Positions 1-7,132 are shown, counted from the stretch's first letter. The stretch is DNA of 7,132 nt from a bacterium (GCA_025774205.1 JALGWK010000131.1:1-7132), one strand, 5' to 3'. Notes: generated by a model from the sequence alone, not told the origin. Translations and numbers: made by a program.

Positions 1-318
1 CTGAAGAAGGATCAGAAGGGATTCGGGATCACGAGTACCAGGATCGCCGAGGAGATCGGCCGGGTCATTGTGCAGAACATCGTGATGCTCGGTTTCTTCG
101 CGGCCGTGACGAAGCTGGTTTCAAAGGAGGAATGGGAGCGCTCGGTGATGGATTCGGTCCCGGCGGGGACGGAGGACCTGAACATGAAGGCGTTCCACGC
201 CGGCTGGGACTACTTCGAGGAACACTACGGCGAGGGACCACAAAAGCAGGAACAGGCGGAAGCGCCGGCTGAAGAGGACGTGGAGAAAGAGGCGGTCGCT
301 GCGGAGACATCGGAATAA
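1..318 (+). CDS. korC: 2-oxoacid:ferredoxin oxidoreductase gamma subunit (3' part only)
   Basis: This is the C-terminal 105 residues of a gene whose start lies left of the window; reading frame 1 is open from base 1 to a TAA at 316-318. The segment with GITSTRIAEEIG, then QNIVMLGFFAAVTKLV, then VPAGTEDLNMKAFHAG matches the end of the gamma domain of 2-oxoacid:ferredoxin oxidoreductases, which work with the alpha and beta subunits to oxidise a 2-oxoacid plus CoA to acyl-CoA and CO2 while reducing ferredoxin in the cytoplasm. The substrate (2-oxoglutarate, pyruvate or branched-chain) cannot be decided from this piece, so the symbol is tentative. The last 25 or so residues are an added acidic low-complexity tail (8 Glu and 1 Asp against 2 Lys) not expected in the core fold. 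An internal ATG at 79 or GTG at 70 would cut through the conserved domain and is not the real start. The next gene begins 55 bp downstream, so co-transcription with the Hdr genes is plausible. Confidence 0.8.
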   Translation: MKKDQKGFGITSTRIAEEIGRVIVQNIVMLGFFAAVTKLVSKEEWERSVMDSVPAGTEDLNMKAFHAGWDYFEEHYGEGPQKQEQAEAPAEEDVEKEAVAAETSE

Positions 319-373: not shown

Positions 374-3300
374 ATGACCGCTGAAGCCAACGGCATGATC
401 GAAGCGGTGGAAACCCGGGGGAAGCGCGCTGTCGTGATCGGCGGCGGCATCGCCGGGATGCAGGCCGCTCTCGACCTGGCGAACGCGAGGATACCGGTGA
501 CGCTGGTGGAAGCGTCTCCGTCCCTGGGCGGGAGGATGGCCCAGCTGGACAAGACCTTCCCCACCATGGATTGCTCTATATGAATTCTGGGCCCTCGGGC
601 CATGGATGTCGGTCGACATCCGCTGATAGAGGTCGTCACCAACGCCGAGGTCATCGGCTGCGAAGGTGATCCGGGAGATTTCCGGGTCCAGATACGAGCG
701 CACCCGAGGTATGTCGATATCGATGCCTGCGTGGCTTGCGGCATGTGCGTCGAGACCTGTCCGCAGATTGGCGGCAATGAATTCGACATGGGCTTCAAGG
801 CCCGCAAGGCGATCTACCGTCCCTTTCCCCAGTCGGTGCCGTCGGCCTACGTCATCGATCCCGACTCCTGTCTGAATTTCCTGCGTCACCTCACCGACAA
901 GCAGATCAGGAGCATGGAGAAGATCAAGGCCGCCAAGATGAAGCGGCAGCCAGATGTCACCCTGCCCCACCTGCCCTGCGGTCACTGCACCGACACCTGT
1001 GACGTCGGCGCCATCGATTTCGACCAGGTCGCCCGGGATTTCGAGGTGGACGCCGGGTCAATCCTGGTCGCCATCGGTTTCAAGGAGTTCGATGCCCGCA
1101 AACTGGGGCAATACGGCTACGGTCGTTTCCCGAATGTGGTCACCAGCCTCGAGCTGGAGCGGATGCTGAACGCCTCAGGCGTGACCGATGGCCACGTAGT
1201 CCGTCCCTCCGATATGGAGACACCGAAGAATATCGTTTTCATCCAATGCGTCGGTGCCCGCGGTGACGGCGGTCGTCCCTACTGCAGCCGCTTCTGCTGC
1301 ATGAACGCGGTCAAGGACTCGATGCTGATCCGTCAGCACGATCCCGAGGTGGAGGACATCACCATCCTCTACACCGACCTGAGAGCATTCGGAAAGGGAT
1401 TCGACGACTTCGTGGCACGTTCCATCGAGGAGCAGAGCGCCCACTACACACGGGGCCGTCCGGCGAAGATCGAACACCGTCCCGAGGACGACACCCTGGT
1501 GATCCACGTCGAGGACACTATCGAACACGTCCAGAAACAGATCCCGGCCGATCTCGTGGTCCTCTCGGTTGCTGCCGCGCCCAACGACGGCGCCATCGAA
1601 CTGGCGAAGATCCTCGACATCGAGACTGACCGGTACGGATTCGTCAGCCCGCGTGACCCGGCGGTTTCAGCGGTCGAGACCGTCCGCGACGGCATCTATG
1701 TCTGCGGCAGCGCTATCGGTCCGCAGGTTATCCCCGACGCGGTAGCCCAGGCTTCAGCCGCCGCCGCCCGGGCGCAACTCTTCCTGGCCGGCAGCAGAAT
1801 CGATGACGTCGCGGAGAAACCGGAACCGCTCGATCTCTCCGGGCCGCCCCGGGTCGGGGTCCTCGTCTGCAGCTGCGGAGCCAATATCGGCGGTATTCTC
1901 GATGTCGATGACCTCTCCGACTACGCCCTGACCCTGCCCGGAGTTGTCGCCGCCGAACCCTCGATGTTCGCCTGCGCCGAGACCGGTCAGGAGCAGCTCG
2001 TCGACATGATCAGGGAACATCGGCTCAACCGGCTCGTGGTCGCCTCCTGCACCCCGCGGACGCACGAACCGGTCTTCCGGGACGCCTGCGCCATGACTGG
2101 CTTCAACCCCTACCTGCTCGACATGGTGAACATCCGCGACCAGTGTTCGTGGGTGCACGCCAACGAGCCGGTCCTGGCCCAGGAGAAGGCGAAAGACCTC
2201 ATCCGGATGAGCGTGGCCCGCTCACGGAAGCTCGAAGAACTCTACGAGGGAGAGGTGCCGATGTGCCGGCAGGCCCTGGTGATCGGCGGCGGCATCGCCG
2301 GTATCCAGGCCGCCACCGATCTGGCCGAACAGGGATTCCCGGTCGTCCTGGTCGAGAAGGGAGACGCCCTCGGAGGACGGCTCCTGGCTCCGAACCTCAG
2401 GTACCTCTACCCAAACCGGCGCCCCGCCGTCGAGATCCTGGAACGGAAGGTGGGCCGGCTCCTGAAGAGCGACGCCCGGGTGCTCCTCAACGCCGAAGTG
2501 GAGGAGATCACCGGTTTCGTCGGCAATTTCGACGTCAAGCTGAAGGGCGCTGTGGAAGAGGATCTGAAAGTCGGTGTCATCATCCTGGCCTTCGGAGCCA
2601 GCCTCCACGATCCCGGCGATGAGTTCGGCTACGGCACGATGCCGAACGTCATCACCAGCGAGGAACTGGAGAAGAACTTCCACGCCAACGATGACGAGGT
2701 TCTGATCGATGGCAGGAAGCCGACCAGCGCCTCCTTCATCCTCTGTGTCGGATCGCGCGAGGCAGAGGGCTTTACCGGCTGTTCACGCTACTGCTGCCCC
2801 ACCGCGATCAAGCAGGCCATCCATCTTAACTCGCTGGGGATCGACACCACCATTTTCTATCGAGACATCCGCACCGTCTCGGCCGGCGCCGAGGAGATGT
2901 ACCGCGAGGCCCGCGGCAACGGCGTCCTCTTCGTCCGAATCCCTCCGGGTGAGAAACCGGAGGTGATCGGCAAGCAGAAGGTTGAAGCCCTGCAGTGCTA
3001 CGACGAACTGCTCGGCCAGAAGCTGGAAGTGGAGACCGACCTGGTGATCCTGAGCGTCGGCATGAGGCCGCGACAGCCTGAGACCGATCAGTTCCACCTG
3101 ATCCTGAAGGCCAGCCTCGGTCTCGACGGTTTCTTCCTCGAACGCCATCCCGAGCTGGCGCCGGTCGAGACAGCGGTGGAAGGCGTATTTCTGGCCGGCA
3201 CCGTCCAGGGTCCGAAGGATATCGTTGACTCGGTGGCCCAGGCCTCCGCTACGGCCGCCAAGGCTGCCGTCCTCCTGGCCTTCGACAGTGTCCGGATCGA

Positions 3301-3553
3301 ACCGACCGTCTCGGTGGTCGATGAGATCAAGTGCCGCGCCTGCGGGACCTGCGTGGATGTCTGTCCCTACTCGGCGGCCGACCTGGTCGAGATCGACGGG
3401 GAGATGCACGTCGCCCGGATCAACGCTTCGCTCTGCAAGGGGTGCGGCGTCTGCGCTGCCTGGTGTCCGTCATCGGCGATCGATGCCCGCCACTTCACCG
3501 ACCAGCAGGTGATCGCGATGATCGATACCGCCTTCGCGGAGGAGACACGATGA
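374..3553 (+). CDS. hdrA: Tandem HdrA-HdrA fusion flavoprotein, selenocysteine-containing (TGA at 581-583 read through)
   Basis: This is a heterodisulfide reductase subunit A-like flavoprotein of 1059 residues, if the in-frame TGA at residue 70 is selenocysteine. HdrA carries the bifurcating FAD and many [4Fe-4S] clusters and passes electrons between MvhD-type donors, ferredoxin and HdrB/C. Unit 1 (about 1-483) starts directly with the FAD motif GGGIAG (23-28). It then has DCSIUILGP (U70), an inserted double ferredoxin domain (Cys 119, 122, 125, 129; then 166, 202, 205, 209) and the CVG...YCSRFCC cysteines (292, 304, 308, 309). Unit 2 (about 494-1059) has the HdrA N-terminal domain with CSCG (499, 501), Cys534 and CTPRTHEP (Cys559), then a second GGGIAG (638-643). 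It lacks the Sec/Cys loop and the inner ferredoxins, but ends with two CxxCxxCxxxCP motifs (987-997, 1021-1031). ATG 374 is chosen because GAGGAG at 361-366 lies 7 bp upstream; GTG 368 is too close to it. Its stop overlaps the next start as ATGA. Normal HdrA is about 650 residues, and the length resembles duplicated HdrA forms such as BamE (recalled, not searched). Confidence 0.93.
572..595 (+). repeat. 24-bp block around the first Sec codon, identical to 6037-6060
   Basis: The 24 bases spanning the codons for C-S-I-Sec-I-L-G-P, with the last position ending in CCT, are identical to those at 6037-6060. The flanking coding sequence of the two hdrA genes has diverged at many positions. The block includes the Ile codon ATA directly before TGA. 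The identity may reflect recoding constraint or recent gene conversion. Confidence 0.85.
581..583 (+). other. In-frame TGA read as selenocysteine (residue 70 of the first HdrA)
   Basis: TGA replaces the cysteine codon in the HdrA motif DCSI-C-ILGP. The frame before (374-580) and after (584-3550) is the same, and HdrA homology resumes at once with ILGP and then VGRHP. Family knowledge: this HdrA position is Cys in most members and Sec in some archaea and bacteria, and sits near the FAD in an iron-sulfur-binding region. A hairpin that fits a bacterial SECIS follows at 604-621. Confidence 0.9.
604..621 (+). promoter_or_regulatory. Bacterial SECIS hairpin for the first hdrA
   Basis: GGATGTC, loop GGTC, GACATCC form a perfect 7-bp stem with a GGUC tetraloop. 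The loop begins 27 nt after the TGA, inside the 16-37 nt range generally used for bacterial SECIS elements, and GGUC is also the core of the Escherichia coli fdhF SECIS loop bound by SelB. The element lies within the coding sequence for M-D-V-G-R-H-P. A short GGCC/GGCC pairing at 590-601 could form between it and the TGA. Confidence 0.8.
3538..3544 (+). promoter_or_regulatory. Strong ribosome binding site for the mvhD-like gene
   Basis: GGAGGAG ends 5 bp before ATG 3550, inside the end of hdrA. Together with the ATGA overlap (3550-3553) it indicates translational coupling. It also shows that the lysine-rich N-terminus of the next protein is translated, rather than a later internal start being used. 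Confidence 0.75.
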
Positions 3554-4281
3554 CAGCCAAGAAAGCAGCCGCGAAGAAGACGACCGCAAAGAAAGCGGCC
3601 TCGAAGAAGACAGCGGCGAAGAAGACCGCTGCCGGCAAGACATCCGCGAAGAAGACTGTCGCGAAAAAGACCGCCGCAAAGAAGACCGTGGTGAAGAAAG
3701 CGGCGGTGAAGAAGACCGTGGTGAAGAAAGCGGCGGTGAAGAAGACCGTCGACGCAAAGGCTGCAGAGACGCAGGCCACAGAGAAGAAGGTCGTCGTAAA
3801 GGACGCTTCCGGACAGCCCGTGGCTACGGAGCTGCTGGGCCCGGAAGAAGGCCGCTGGAACCCGAACATCTTCGTCTTTGCCTGCAACTGGTGCTCGTAC
3901 GCCGGGGCCGACACCGCCGGGATCTCGCGCATCCAGCACCAGCCCCACTTCCGGACGATCAGGGTGATGTGTTCCGGCCGGGTCCACCCCGGCTTCGTCC
4001 TCCGCGCGCTGGAGAAAGGCGCCGACGGGGTCCTGGTCTCCGGCTGTCATATCGGCGATTGCCACTACATCTCGGGGAACGAGCGTCAGCTCGAGCACTT
4101 CGAGATCACCAAAAGACTTGTCCACCTGATCGGCCTCGAGCCGGGTCGGGTCAGACTGGAGTGGATCAGCGCCGCCGAGGGTCCCCGGTGGGCAAAGATC
4201 ATTAATGAGTTCACCGATCAGATCAGAGCGCTCGGTCCCAGCCCGCTGAAGGGTGAGAAGGACGAGCGCAGGGCAGGATAA
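3550..4281 (+). CDS. mvhD: MvhD-type iron-sulfur subunit with N-terminal lysine-rich histone-H1-like tail
   Basis: The protein has 243 residues. Residues about 102-236 are a full MvhD-like domain: NIFVFACNWCSYAGAD (Cys112, Cys115), RVMCSGR (Cys141), SGCHIGDCHYISGN (Cys166, Cys171) and LEWISAAEG near the end. MvhD family proteins bind a [2Fe-2S] cluster and pass electrons from a hydrogenase or other donor to HdrA; here both flanking genes are Hdr subunits, so it is probably the entry or docking unit of this complex. The canonical protein is about 140 residues. The extra 100 residues at the front are lysine- and alanine-rich, with 26 Lys in the first 70, no aromatic residues, and pairs of Lys every fifth position from residues 4-5 to 64-65 (one pair is GK). 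Such tails are known from histone-H1-like, AlgP-like and HupB-like nucleic-acid-binding proteins. ATG 3550 overlaps the hdrA stop and has a strong ribosome site. Some MvhD relatives carry Sec in the first motif; this one has Cys. A longer frame open from 3331 is only overlap with hdrA. Confidence 0.92.
   Translation: MTAKKAAAKKTTAKKAASKKTAAKKTAAGKTSAKKTVAKKTAAKKTVVKKAAVKKTVVKKAAVKKTVDAKAAETQATEKKVVVKDASGQPVATELLGPEEGRWNPNIFVFACNWCSYAGADTAGISRIQHQPHFRTIRVMCSGRVHPGFVLRALEKGADGVLVSGCHIGDCHYISGNERQLEHFEITKRLVHLIGLEPGRVRLEWISAAEGPRWAKIINEFTDQIRALGPSPLKGEKDERRAG
3679..3749 (+). repeat. 30-bp tandem repeat inside the lysine tail (about 2.4 copies)
   Basis: Positions 3681-3710 and 3711-3740 are identical, and the match extends 2 bp left and 9 bp right (3679-3680 and 3741-3749). 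Each 30-bp unit codes for ten residues, two xxxKK pentapeptides (KTVVKKAAVK). Perfect DNA identity, including codon choice, points to recent slippage or unequal recombination. Confidence 0.9.
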
Positions 4282-4284
4282 CAT

Positions 4285-4288
4285 GGAG
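4285..4288 (+). promoter_or_regulatory. Ribosome binding site of the HdrC-HdrB fusion gene
   Basis: GGAG sits 8 bp before ATG 4297 and 5 bp before GTG 4294. AAGG at 4290-4293 abuts the GTG. ATG 4297 is preferred, but GTG 4294 would add only one residue. Confidence 0.5.
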
Positions 4289-4296
4289 CAAGGGTG

Positions 4297-5439
4297 ATGG
4301 TGGATCTCACTGCGGTCACAAAGAAATCGAGGGCCTGGGCCTGCTACGATTGCGGCAAGTGCACGGCAACCTGCCCCATCGCGCGCGCCGGCGGCTCGTA
4401 CAGTCCGCGCAAGCACATCCTCGACAGCAACACGGGGAATCCGGCCGAGGTGCTCGATCTCAAGACCCTCTTTGCCTGTCTCTCCTGCAGTCTCTGTGAA
4501 CAGCGCTGCCCGGCCCAGGTTGTCTACACCGACCTGGTGCTCAGTCTGCGCGAGCTGGCCCACGATGAAGGGATCGAACCCGATTGTCCCCATGGGGGGA
4601 CGCTGCAGTCACTCATGCGGCTCATGGCCGCCGGTGGAACCGTCCAGAACCGGATGGAGTGGCTCGAGGACGATCTGAATACCACTCCGGCGGAGGGTGA
4701 GGTGTTCTACTGGACCGGTTGCGCCATGTACTACGACGCCCTCTTCCCCGACTACGGCGCCCGTCCGATTCAGGGCACGAAGGCCGCCGTCAGACTGTTC
4801 AATAAACTCGGTGTCACACCGGTTGTCTCCCCTGATGAGCGCTGCTGCGGGCACGACCTGCTCTGGAACGGGGACCGCGAGAACTTCGAGAAGCTGGCCC
4901 GTCATAATATCGAAGTCGTGGAAAAGAGCGGCGCCTCGGTGGTGGTGACCTCCTGCGCCGAATGTCTGCGCACCTGGTCGAAGGATTACGGGTCGCTCAG
5001 TGACGGGAAGCTCCCGAAGATCATGCACATGACCGAATACCTCGCCGAGCACCTGCCGGAACTCGACCTGAAGGAGAACGGCGGCCTGAAGGTGACCTAC
5101 CAGGACCCGTGTCGTCTGGGCCGGCAGCTCGGCATCTACGACCCGCCCCGCGAAGTCCTGGAGGCTCTGCCGGGTGTGGAACTGGTGGAGATGCGCCACT
5201 CGAAGCAGGGCGCGCAGTGCTGTGCCGGGGGGACCTGGTCTAACTGTGACATCTTCGCCAAGCAGATCCAGGTGGACCGTCTGCGCGAAGCCCGCGCGAC
5301 GGGAGCTGAAGTGATGGCCACGGCCTGTCCGAAGTGCCAGATCCACTTCAGCTGCACGATGAAGGATCCTCTGCTGAAAGAGGAAATCAAGATCGAGATG
5401 AGGGATGTCGCTGAGCTGGTGCTCGACCTCATCTCATAA
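4297..5439 (+). CDS. hdrD: HdrC-HdrB fusion (HdrD-like) iron-sulfur subunit
   Basis: A 380-residue soluble protein. The HdrC-like front part holds two [4Fe-4S] ferredoxin motifs, CYDCGKCTATCP (Cys16, 19, 22, 26) and CLSCSLCEQRCP (Cys61, 64, 67, 71). The HdrB-like back part holds two complete CCG domains: Cys142, Cys183-Cys184, CAEC (220, 223); and Cys272, Cys308-Cys309, CPKC (344, 347). In HdrB these motifs bind two noncubane [4Fe-4S] clusters that cleave the CoM-S-S-CoB heterodisulfide. In bacteria the substrate of such proteins is usually unknown, so no substrate is claimed. The order HdrC then HdrB in one chain is that of HdrD, and of related units in bacterial complexes. No membrane segment or signal peptide is visible, which speaks against a quinone-linked Qmo or DsrMK arrangement. 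It lies 15 bp after the mvhD-like gene and 30 bp before the second hdrA. Confidence 0.92.
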   Translation: MVDLTAVTKKSRAWACYDCGKCTATCPIARAGGSYSPRKHILDSNTGNPAEVLDLKTLFACLSCSLCEQRCPAQVVYTDLVLSLRELAHDEGIEPDCPHGGTLQSLMRLMAAGGTVQNRMEWLEDDLNTTPAEGEVFYWTGCAMYYDALFPDYGARPIQGTKAAVRLFNKLGVTPVVSPDERCCGHDLLWNGDRENFEKLARHNIEVVEKSGASVVVTSCAECLRTWSKDYGSLSDGKLPKIMHMTEYLAEHLPELDLKENGGLKVTYQDPCRLGRQLGIYDPPREVLEALPGVELVEMRHSKQGAQCCAGGTWSNCDIFAKQIQVDRLREARATGAEVMATACPKCQIHFSCTMKDPLLKEEIKIEMRDVAELVLDLIS

Positions 5440-5455
5440 ACGAACCATTTCCCGG

Positions 5456-5465
5456 AAGGAAAGGG
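5456..5465 (+). promoter_or_regulatory. Purine-rich ribosome binding region of the second hdrA
   Basis: AAGGAAAGGG ends 4 bp before ATG 5470; its AAGGA part has 9 bp spacing. The 30-bp gap from the previous stop leaves little room for a promoter, so the second hdrA is probably read from the same transcript. Confidence 0.5.
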
Positions 5466-5469
5466 ACAG

Positions 5470-7132
5470 ATGGTAGCCAACGCATCGAATGGCGATGAAC
5501 TCCGGATCGGGGTAGCAGTCGACACCCTGGCCGTCACGGAGTACGCCTTGACGCTGCAGGATGTGGTGTGCGCGGTACAGAACAAGTACACGTGCGCCGA
5601 TCCCGGACAGAACGAGATCAAGGACGCGATCAAACTGCACAATTTGAACCGCGTGGTCGTCGCGTCGTGCACGCCGAGACAGCATGAACCGACATTCCGG
5701 CAGTGCGTCCATGAGGCGGGCCTGAATCCATATCTCATGGAGATGGCCAACCTGCGCGAACACTGTTCGTGGGTCCATCCGAATGATTGGGACGGAGCCA
5801 CCAGCAAGGCGAAGGATCTCGTGGCCAGTGCCGTAGCCCGAGCCCGCTTCCTGCAGAGTCAGGAAGAGATGGCGGTCCAGGTCACCCAGCGGGCGCTGGT
5901 TATCGGGGGCGGGATCGCGGGGATCGAAGCGGCTCTCGAGCTGGCGGAACAGGGACACAAGGTCACGCTGGTCGAGAAGAGCGCGACCATCGGTGGGATC
6001 ATGGCTCAGCTCGACAAGACCTATCCCACGATGGACTGCTCTATATGAATTCTGGGCCCTAAGGCCATCGATGCCGGTCGGCATCCGAATATAGAGCTTC
6101 TCACTTACGCCGAGGTCGAGGCGGTCTCCGGTTACGTAGGGAACTTCTCGGTCACCATCCGGAAAAAGGCCCGGTACGTCGACCTCGATCTGTGCAATTC
6201 CTGCGATGAGTGCGCCAAGGTCTGTCCCCAGGTGGTACCCGACGAGTACCAGATGGGTCTGTCGTCACGGAAGGCGATCTACATCCCCTTCCCCCAGGCG
6301 GTACCCAGCGTCTACGCGCTCGACATGGAGAACTGTCTCGGGAACAATCCGATCGCGTGCGGTAAGTGTCAGGACGTCTGCGAGCAGAAGGCCATCGACT
6401 ACGACGACCAGGACGAACTGATCACCCGGGAGGTCGGCGCGGTCGTCGTGGCCATCGGTCTCGATGTCTACGACCCGACCGAGATGGACGAATACGGCTA
6501 TACCCGTTTCGAGAACGTCATCACTTCGATGGAGTTCGAACGCCTGATGATCTGTGCCGGTGGTCCCACCGACGGTCACTTCGTGCGTCCGGGTGACATG
6601 GAGCGACCGAAGAAGATCGGGTTCATCCAGTGCGTCGGTTCCCGTAATCCTGCCATCGGGAGACCGTACTGCTCGAACATCTGCTGCATGAACACCATCA
6701 AGGACACCCTCCTGCTGGCCGACCATTATCCCGACACCGAGAACGTGGTCTTCTACCAGGACATCCGGGCGTTCGGCAAGTCGTTCGAGGACATGTTCCA
6801 GCGTTCGAAGGAGATGGGCGTCCGGTACGTGCGAGGCCTCCCCGGCGACATCGAGGAGGACCCCGAGACCGGGAACCTGATCGTTACCGTGGAGAACACG
6901 ACCTCCGGGAAGCTCGAGCGACACGAGCTCGACATGGTCGTACTCTCCGTCGGCGTCATCCCGCCCGCGGATATGAAGAAGATCTCCAGCCTGCTGACCC
7001 TGTCGAAGACCTCTGATGGTTTCTTCATGGAGTCGCATCCGAAACTGAAGCCGATCGACGCGCCCACGAAGGGCGTTTACTTCGCTGGTTTCTGCGAATC
7101 ACCGAAGGACATCAAGGAGTCGGTCTGCCAGG
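5470..7132 (+). CDS. hdrA: Second HdrA, selenocysteine-containing (TGA at 6046-6048 read through), 3' truncated by window edge
   Basis: The frame from ATG 5470 stays open, apart from one TGA at residue 193, to the end of the window (554 residues seen). It has the normal HdrA order. The N-terminal domain (about 11-135) has YTCADPGQ (Cys42), ASCTPRQHEP (Cys67) and REHCSWVH. The FAD motif GGGIAG is at 146-151, DCSIUILGP has Cys190 and U193, and the inserted ferredoxins have Cys 242, 245, 248, 252 and Cys 289, 297, 300, 304. FIQCVGSRN...YCSNICC follows, and then GFFMESHPKL and the FAD-closing segment YFAGFCESPKDIKESV at the right edge. Any C-terminal ferredoxins lie outside the window. Compared with unit 2 of the first HdrA, the N-terminal domain lacks the CSCGANIGG stretch, about 13 codons lost in frame, so two expected cluster ligands are absent; Cys34 is a nonconserved extra. 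It probably acts as the second flavin subunit of the same complex, alongside the HdrD-like and MvhD-like proteins. Divergence between the two HdrAs rules out a recent simple duplication. Confidence 0.93.
6037..6060 (+). repeat. 24-bp block around the second Sec codon, identical to 572-595
   Basis: This is the second copy of the identical block spanning the codons for C-S-I-Sec-I-L-G-P. The base before it differs (GAC here, GAT in the first gene), as do the bases right after it (AAG versus CGG). Confidence 0.85.
6046..6048 (+). other. In-frame TGA read as selenocysteine (residue 193 of the second HdrA)
   Basis: Same motif position as the TGA at 581-583. HdrA homology continues in frame from ATT at 6049 (ILGPKA, then AGRHPNIEL) to the window edge without another stop. 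A SECIS-type hairpin follows at 6070-6085. Confidence 0.9.
6070..6085 (+). promoter_or_regulatory. Bacterial SECIS hairpin for the second hdrA
   Basis: GATGCC, loop GGTC, GGCATC form a perfect 6-bp stem. The loop starts 27 nt after the TGA, exactly as in the first gene. Relative to the first hairpin, the stem pair T609-A616 has become C6074-G6081, a compensatory change. The seventh, outermost pair of the first hairpin is not kept here (C6069 opposite C6086). Confidence 0.8.

Follow-up and report, generated by a model that had tools for sequence, protein, structure and literature searches.

Paired hdrA genes with an in-frame UGA, probable selenoprotein genes, in a kor-linked operon of diverse bacteria

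Two hdrA genes share an in-frame TGA codon

The window analyzed here, 7,132 bases of bacterial DNA (GCA_025774205.1, JALGWK010000131.1:1-7132), is an entire contig (C395) of a 3.09 Mb metagenome-assembled genome (MAG) with an estimated completeness of 85.85%. It carries the end of a 2-oxoacid:ferredoxin oxidoreductase gene (korC), mvhD, an hdrD-like gene and two hdrA genes (hdrA1 and hdrA2), each of which contains an in-frame TGA. A preliminary description read the two genes as separate selenocysteine (Sec) HdrA genes within one operon, and the reading frames, alignments and relatives bear this out. We conclude that hdrA1 and hdrA2 are very likely genuine bacterial selenoprotein genes in one conserved operon. 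The features that carry this reading, which include a putative selenocysteine insertion sequence (SECIS) in each gene, are:

374..3553, + strand: hdrA1, a tandem (type II) HdrA of 1059 aa with predicted Sec at residue 70 (NF040770 matches both halves; PDB alignment; 27-orthologue alignment)
581..583, + strand: in-frame TGA, read as HdrA1 U70 (aligned to 5odc residue 197)
604..621, + strand: putative SECIS hairpin of hdrA1, GGATGTCGGTCGACATCC, loop GGTC
5470..7132, + strand: hdrA2, predicted Sec at residue 193, cut by the contig end (NF040770)
6046..6048, + strand: in-frame TGA, read as HdrA2 U193 (aligned to 5odc residue 197)
6070..6085, + strand: putative SECIS hairpin of hdrA2, GATGCCGGTCGGCATC, loop GGTC, with a compensatory change relative to hdrA1

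The hdrA1 frame (374-3553) has a single internal TGA at 581-583, and the hdrA2 frame, which starts at 5470 and is cut by the contig end, has a single one at 6046-6048; neither holds a further in-frame stop. Both codons lie within the motif D-C-S-I-U-I-L-G-P, and the HdrA homology is unbroken on either side. HdrA1 U70 and HdrA2 U193 align gaplessly with residue 197 of the Methanothermococcus thermolithotrophicus HdrA (PDB: 5odc), and the TGA position matches Cys in HdrA homologues. The preliminary description had correctly located one TGA per gene at the same motif residue (581-6048, residues 70 and 193). Against the HdrA2 family model NF040770, whose curated cut-off is 1100 bits, HdrA1 scores 1011 bits, the contig-end-truncated HdrA2 796 bits, and the full-length HdrA2 of a close relative (locus L017) 1136 bits.

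Every relative whose codon is present has TGA at the identical position. Besides the window, 32 loci found with one strict pattern and another found by tblastn (L057) have TGA in both hdrA genes. The apparent exceptions to this pairing are two loci cut by contig ends (L019, L038) and one in which a run of N adjoins the gene (L042), together with L035, where hdrA1 has the TGA but a full hdrA2 is missing. Because relatives keep TGA at the same codon in both genes, the TGAs of the window are not due to chance. One Zixibacteria locus (L040, 4974-15011) has three TGA-bearing hdrA motifs, apparently a duplicated hdrA1 and one hdrA2.

A conserved hairpin lies behind each TGA

Each TGA is followed, about 20 nt downstream, by a hairpin similar to GGATGYCGGTCRRCATCC, with a stem of 6-7 bp and a GGUC loop. 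Covariation was assessed in 77 sequences, drawn from the window and from 42 loci. The hairpin is encoded by the codons GAT-(GCC/GTC)-GGT-(CGG/CGA/AGG)-CAT, and pairing is intact in 77/77. The two arm codons change together: GCC occurs with CGG in 56 sequences and GTC with CGA in 14, seven combine GTC with AGG or CGG through a wobble pair, and none combines GCC with CGA (Fisher p 1.4e-10, kinship ignored). Both versions are found in the window itself, GTC/CGA in hdrA1 and GCC/CGG in hdrA2. Selection on the protein does not explain this association because GCC/GTC swaps Ala and Val, whereas CGG/CGA is silent.

The GGT, GAT and CAT codons of the hairpin are invariant, while in the sequence further downstream they make up 18, 33 and 29% of their respective codon families. 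Among 41 distinct rows, 246/246 cells pair, a value that no shuffled or slid structure equals, and the covariation likewise exceeds that of shuffles and slid structures. Zixibacteria hdrA1 sequences gathered by a profile search without selection for TGA all have both the TGA and the hairpin (24/24). A putative bacterial-type SECIS hairpin with covariation just behind the UGA, one mark of a selenoprotein HdrA, is present, and an Rfam scan returned no SECIS family match at the hairpins. The hairpins are perfect in both TGA-bearing hdrA genes of locus L041 (CP070718.1).

A second small hairpin (GGCC...GGCC) folds directly behind the TGA in both window genes, but the conserved element is the GGUC hairpin. 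A possible lower stem encloses the TGA at 574-631 (CTCTAT/ATAGAG) and 6038-6097 (GCTCTATAT/ATATAGAGC). It would join the Ser codon before the TGA to an Ile codon about 45 nt on, which pair in 49/94 cases against a shuffled mean of 34.7, uncorrected for kinship. The partial backing from third-base pairing across relatives is suggestive only.

The host encodes a Sec-decoding machinery

The genes on which the preliminary description had staked its reading, selA, selB, selC and selD, all occur in the host genome. The host tRNA-Sec scores 65.9 bits and has the anticodon TCA, and SelB scores 342.7 bits together with a neighboring piece. SelA and SelD are each found in two pieces, those of SelA on two contigs. 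The N-terminal part of SelD has an in-frame TGA in a CAGU motif (L064 1-276, minus strand, G000:C412:1-276), and the host SelD is probably a selenoprotein itself.

Of the 45 genomes in which relatives occur, a tRNA-Sec match exceeds the family cut-off in 38 and reaches more than 60 bits in 34; those scoring about 50 bits may represent other tRNAs with a long arm. SelB is over its cut-off in seven of the 11 genomes with no strong tRNA-Sec match, and three more contain SelB-like pieces.

These data bear on two other ways of reading the TGAs. Both could be true stops, with the hdrA genes being pseudogenes or translated as two pieces. As the preliminary description anticipated, standard gene calling does break both genes: it splits hdrA1 into a 71-aa piece and a 983-aa open reading frame and leaves a 192-aa piece of hdrA2. 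The window hdrA2 carries a further 33-nt deletion. However, the orthologues read across several phyla all keep the TGA rather than showing stop-truncated proteins, the frames are intact on both sides, the hairpin is under RNA-level selection and the Sec machinery is present. We reject this very improbable reading on these grounds. Alternatively, the genome as a whole could read TGA as an ordinary sense codon, such as one for Trp or Gly, a view in favor of which we found nothing. This is the least probable reading considered and is likewise rejected, because TGA is the stop codon of hdrA1 (3551-3553, in overlap with the start of mvhD), which also settles the reassignment that the preliminary description had regarded as fatal to its proposal. 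Moreover, internal TGA is confined to one codon that matches Cys in homologues, and tRNA-Sec, SelB, SelA and SelD are encoded by the host.

Sec is invariant in the kor-linked group

Where the fetched flank of hdrA1 includes kor genes, the codon is TGA in 59/59 distinct rows and encodes Cys in none. In the phylogenetic tree, the kor-linked rows form one 62-row group (support 98/82) that is entirely Sec; three of these rows have no kor within the short flank fetched. The neighbors without kor include 10 Cys and five Sec members plus one long-branched Cys row. Judged from these sequences, the sister group without kor interchanges Sec and Cys. Nine of its Cys members read DCSMCIESPKF, with the codon TGC and without the GGT hairpin. 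Five loci without nearby kor (L121, L126, L140, L148, L153) have the TGA and related hairpins. The window's own genome also encodes a tandem HdrA with Cys (C175, FPTLDCASCITTPKM). Given this protein and the Cys neighbors, Cys is permitted in the family, though unseen in the kor-linked group.

The hdrA genes belong to a kor-hdr operon found in several phyla

The remaining genes of the window are:

1..318, + strand: korC, C-terminal part of the 2-oxoacid:ferredoxin oxidoreductase gamma subunit (PF01558 POR, NCBIfam PRK08537; start beyond the contig end, full gene in L017)
3550..4281, + strand: mvhD (FlpD domain), without in-frame TGA (PF02662, E 5e-50)
4294..5439, + strand: hdrD-like gene for a fused HdrC-HdrB protein with two CCG domains (PF02754 in two stretches, plus Fer4)

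The MvhD N-terminal extension (3550-3850) is a lysine/alanine-rich, histone H1-like repeat of the AAKKTAAKK type (PF07382 match), as it is in L017.

Locus L017, whose hdrA1 is 91% identical to that of the window, shows a longer version of the operon: marR, korD, korA, korB, korC, hdrA1, mvhD, hdrD, an hdrA2-mvhD fusion, hdrC and hdrB. The fused protein has 819 aa, and this orthologue is 96% identical to the window's hdrA2. KorA and KorD match 2-oxoacid/2-oxoglutarate oxidoreductase families. A tblastn search over 45 loci found the order korDABC-hdrA1-mvhD-hdrD-hdrA2 on all but a few contigs of sufficient length. Several Zixibacteria have hdrCB upstream of kor, two loci (L023, L024) have a korC match downstream, and L035 (4951-13000) has a natural smaller version, kor-hdrA1 (TGA)-mvhD-hdrC-hdrB, without hdrD and a full hdrA2.

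The gene cluster, always with Sec, recurs in at least seven bacterial phyla. By record title, which can be wrong for MAGs, the hosts are Zixibacteriota, Planctomycetota, Acidobacteriota, Myxococcota, Latescibacterota, Eiseniibacteriota, Verrucomicrobiota and Fermentibacterota. In the tree, members of different phyla are intermixed within a shallow 30-row clade, and only four of 392 Planctomycetota genomes have a strong match. This interleaving and patchy distribution suggest that the operon was passed between phyla by transfer.

The same two observations would suit a reading in which Kor and Hdr are mere neighbors without a shared complex, and the invariance of Sec reflects the spread of one operon rather than function. 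Yet the gene order is also kept in deep branches (48-50% identity, Zixibacteria and Eisenbacteria), and Sec persists over those branches while the sister clade without kor swaps Sec and Cys. We consider such a mere neighborhood unlikely, though a serious contender.

Sec may bind an iron-sulfur cluster between HdrA units

HdrA1 has the complementary layout of a type II HdrA. It contains two thioredoxin-reductase domains, and the N-terminal domain and the Cys197 position are divided between its halves. The N-terminal half has Sec70 and lacks the N-terminal Fe-S domain. The C-terminal half has this domain, with invariant C499, C501 and C534, and has neither Cys nor Sec at the 197 position (27/27 rows). 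HdrA2, as a family, has both the N-terminal domain and Sec. The preliminary description held that both flavin units of the complex keep Sec. Two units do carry it, but since HdrA1 is a tandem protein the flavin units number three in all. A structure predicted for HdrA1 by AlphaFold (pLDDT, the model's confidence score, 78) has 5odi as its best PDB match. Counterparts of E356 and K409, residues reported to characterize bifurcating HdrA (PMC12054007), align in all three flavin units, and HdrA1 E262/K314 and E766/K813 are invariant.

In a published structural comparison, the N-terminal [4Fe-4S] cluster of an HdrA is described as being ligated by Cys197 of the other HdrA, and tandem or fused HdrA proteins as showing complementary loss of the N-terminal domain and Cys197 (PMC9012536). 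The position thus sharpens an earlier proposal that the selenol matters next to the flavin adenine dinucleotide (FAD) or a cluster, as it coincides with this trans-subunit ligand. We propose that SelB decodes the UGA as Sec, with the GGUC hairpin acting as SECIS. Sec would then replace Cys197, probably serving as the ligand that one HdrA thioredoxin-reductase domain provides to the [4Fe-4S] cluster in its partner's N-terminal domain. With two N-terminal domains (HdrA1 C-terminal half and HdrA2) and two Sec residues (HdrA1 N-terminal half and HdrA2), each cluster could have a selenolate ligand.

Alternatively, residue 70/193 could be no cluster ligand but a selenol with redox activity close to the FAD, forming a CxxU pair with Cys67/Cys190. 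The Cys and Sec of D-C-S-I-U are both invariant, CxxU is listed for HdrA selenoproteins (PMC13188914), and the fold is related to that of thioredoxin reductase. Set against this are the described role of the aligned Cys197 as a ligand of the partner's cluster (PMC9012536) and the architecture of HdrA1, where the half without the residue is joined to a half without the N-terminal domain, as expected for a ligand acting in trans. We regard a purely redox-active selenol as unlikely.

The operon products may form a flavin-based bifurcating or confurcating complex, a proposal to which we give about an even chance. It would link a 2-oxoacid (probably 2-oxoglutarate) oxidoreductase to the disulfide-reductase-like arms HdrD and HdrBC via MvhD and ferredoxin. 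Our fullest reading is more tentative: a double bifurcating or confurcating complex whose HdrA units hold [4Fe-4S] clusters between them through obligatory Sec, the operon therefore being confined to Sec-decoding hosts across phyla. Each of the two Sec positions should hold an Fe-S cluster between subunits, and the role of selenium for an Fe-S cluster in bifurcation becomes testable.

Several points weigh against the selenoprotein complex proposed here. Sec incorporation and complex formation are what we infer from gene and protein sequences. The folding energy of the hairpins is weak by itself, with z-scores of -0.7 and -1.3 that do not separate them from shuffles. The host selA and selD are split over contigs. 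Neither tRNA-Sec nor SelB was found in the chromosome-level MAG CP070718.1 (L041/G028), despite its two TGA-bearing hdrA genes. The AlphaFold model of HdrA1 has low confidence at residues 54-67, adjoining the Sec loop, and says nothing on cluster ligation. Finally, the window HdrA2 lacks two likely cysteines of the N-terminal cluster. Relative to L017, 33 nt are gone from hdrA2 at about 5513/5514, encoding the 11 residues FVCDCGLNIAG with a CxCG motif. This motif is present in every hdrA2 orthologue read, and no second copy was found in the window's genome. The preliminary description, which saw no other disruption in the genes, omitted this segment. The loss may be real or an assembly fault, and because of it the two-cluster scheme may not hold in the window's genome.

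Relation to known HdrA systems

Sec-HdrA, several Sec-HdrA per genome and hdrA-hdrA pairs have been described before (PMC1794560, PMC2702500), and archaea are known to combine type II HdrA with HdrD and a second HdrA (PMC12054007). In the open-access literature searched, we found no description of a kor-hdr operon or of an invariant double Sec in such an operon. The new part appears to be the kor-linked, invariantly Sec version of HdrA. Sec and Cys usually interchange in HdrA, whereas the kor-linked clade shows no Cys replacement in any gene read over several phyla. A conserved kor-hdr module is thereby added, one whose two hdrA genes are both broken by routine gene calling.

The closest parallels are the Sec-HdrA of Methanococcales/Methanopyrus and of Deltaproteobacteria (Syntrophobacter fumaroxidans, Desulfobacterium autotrophicum), which share the CxxU selenoprotein, multiple Sec-HdrA per genome and hdrA-hdrA pairs beside mvhD/frhD (PMC1794560, PMC2702500). 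Those operons contain frhA/frhG hydrogenase genes or Sec-GlpC. The kor-hdr operon has a 2-oxoacid oxidoreductase as the partner instead, its mvhD and hdrD lack any in-frame TGA, and both of its distinct HdrA types carry Sec without exception.

In anaerobic methanotrophic archaea (ANME) and methanogens, type II HdrA clusters, some of which also contain a type I HdrA and HdrD, likewise have a tandem HdrA with complementary loss of the N-terminal domain and Cys197 (PMC12054007, PMC9012536). As in the kor-hdr operon, a single cluster unites MvhD, HdrD and HdrBC with a second HdrA. Unlike the kor-hdr operon, the archaeal clusters use FdhB together with a molybdopterin protein, and their description has Cys197. 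The ANME fusions start with the half that has the N-terminal domain, whereas HdrA1 of the window starts with the Cys197/Sec half.

HdrA2B2C2 of Methanosarcina acetivorans (PMC5296606) resembles the present system in its HdrA-MvhD fusion accompanied by HdrB and HdrC, but here the fusion carries predicted Sec, is bacterial, and stands beside kor genes and a second HdrA. The MetFV-HdrABC-MvhD complex of Moorella thermoacetica (PMC9012536) offers a bacterial counterpart, in which a fused HdrA, MvhD and HdrBC are coupled to an oxidoreductase of carbon metabolism. MetFV stands there in the place of KorDABC, and the description in PMC9012536 mentions no second HdrA gene.

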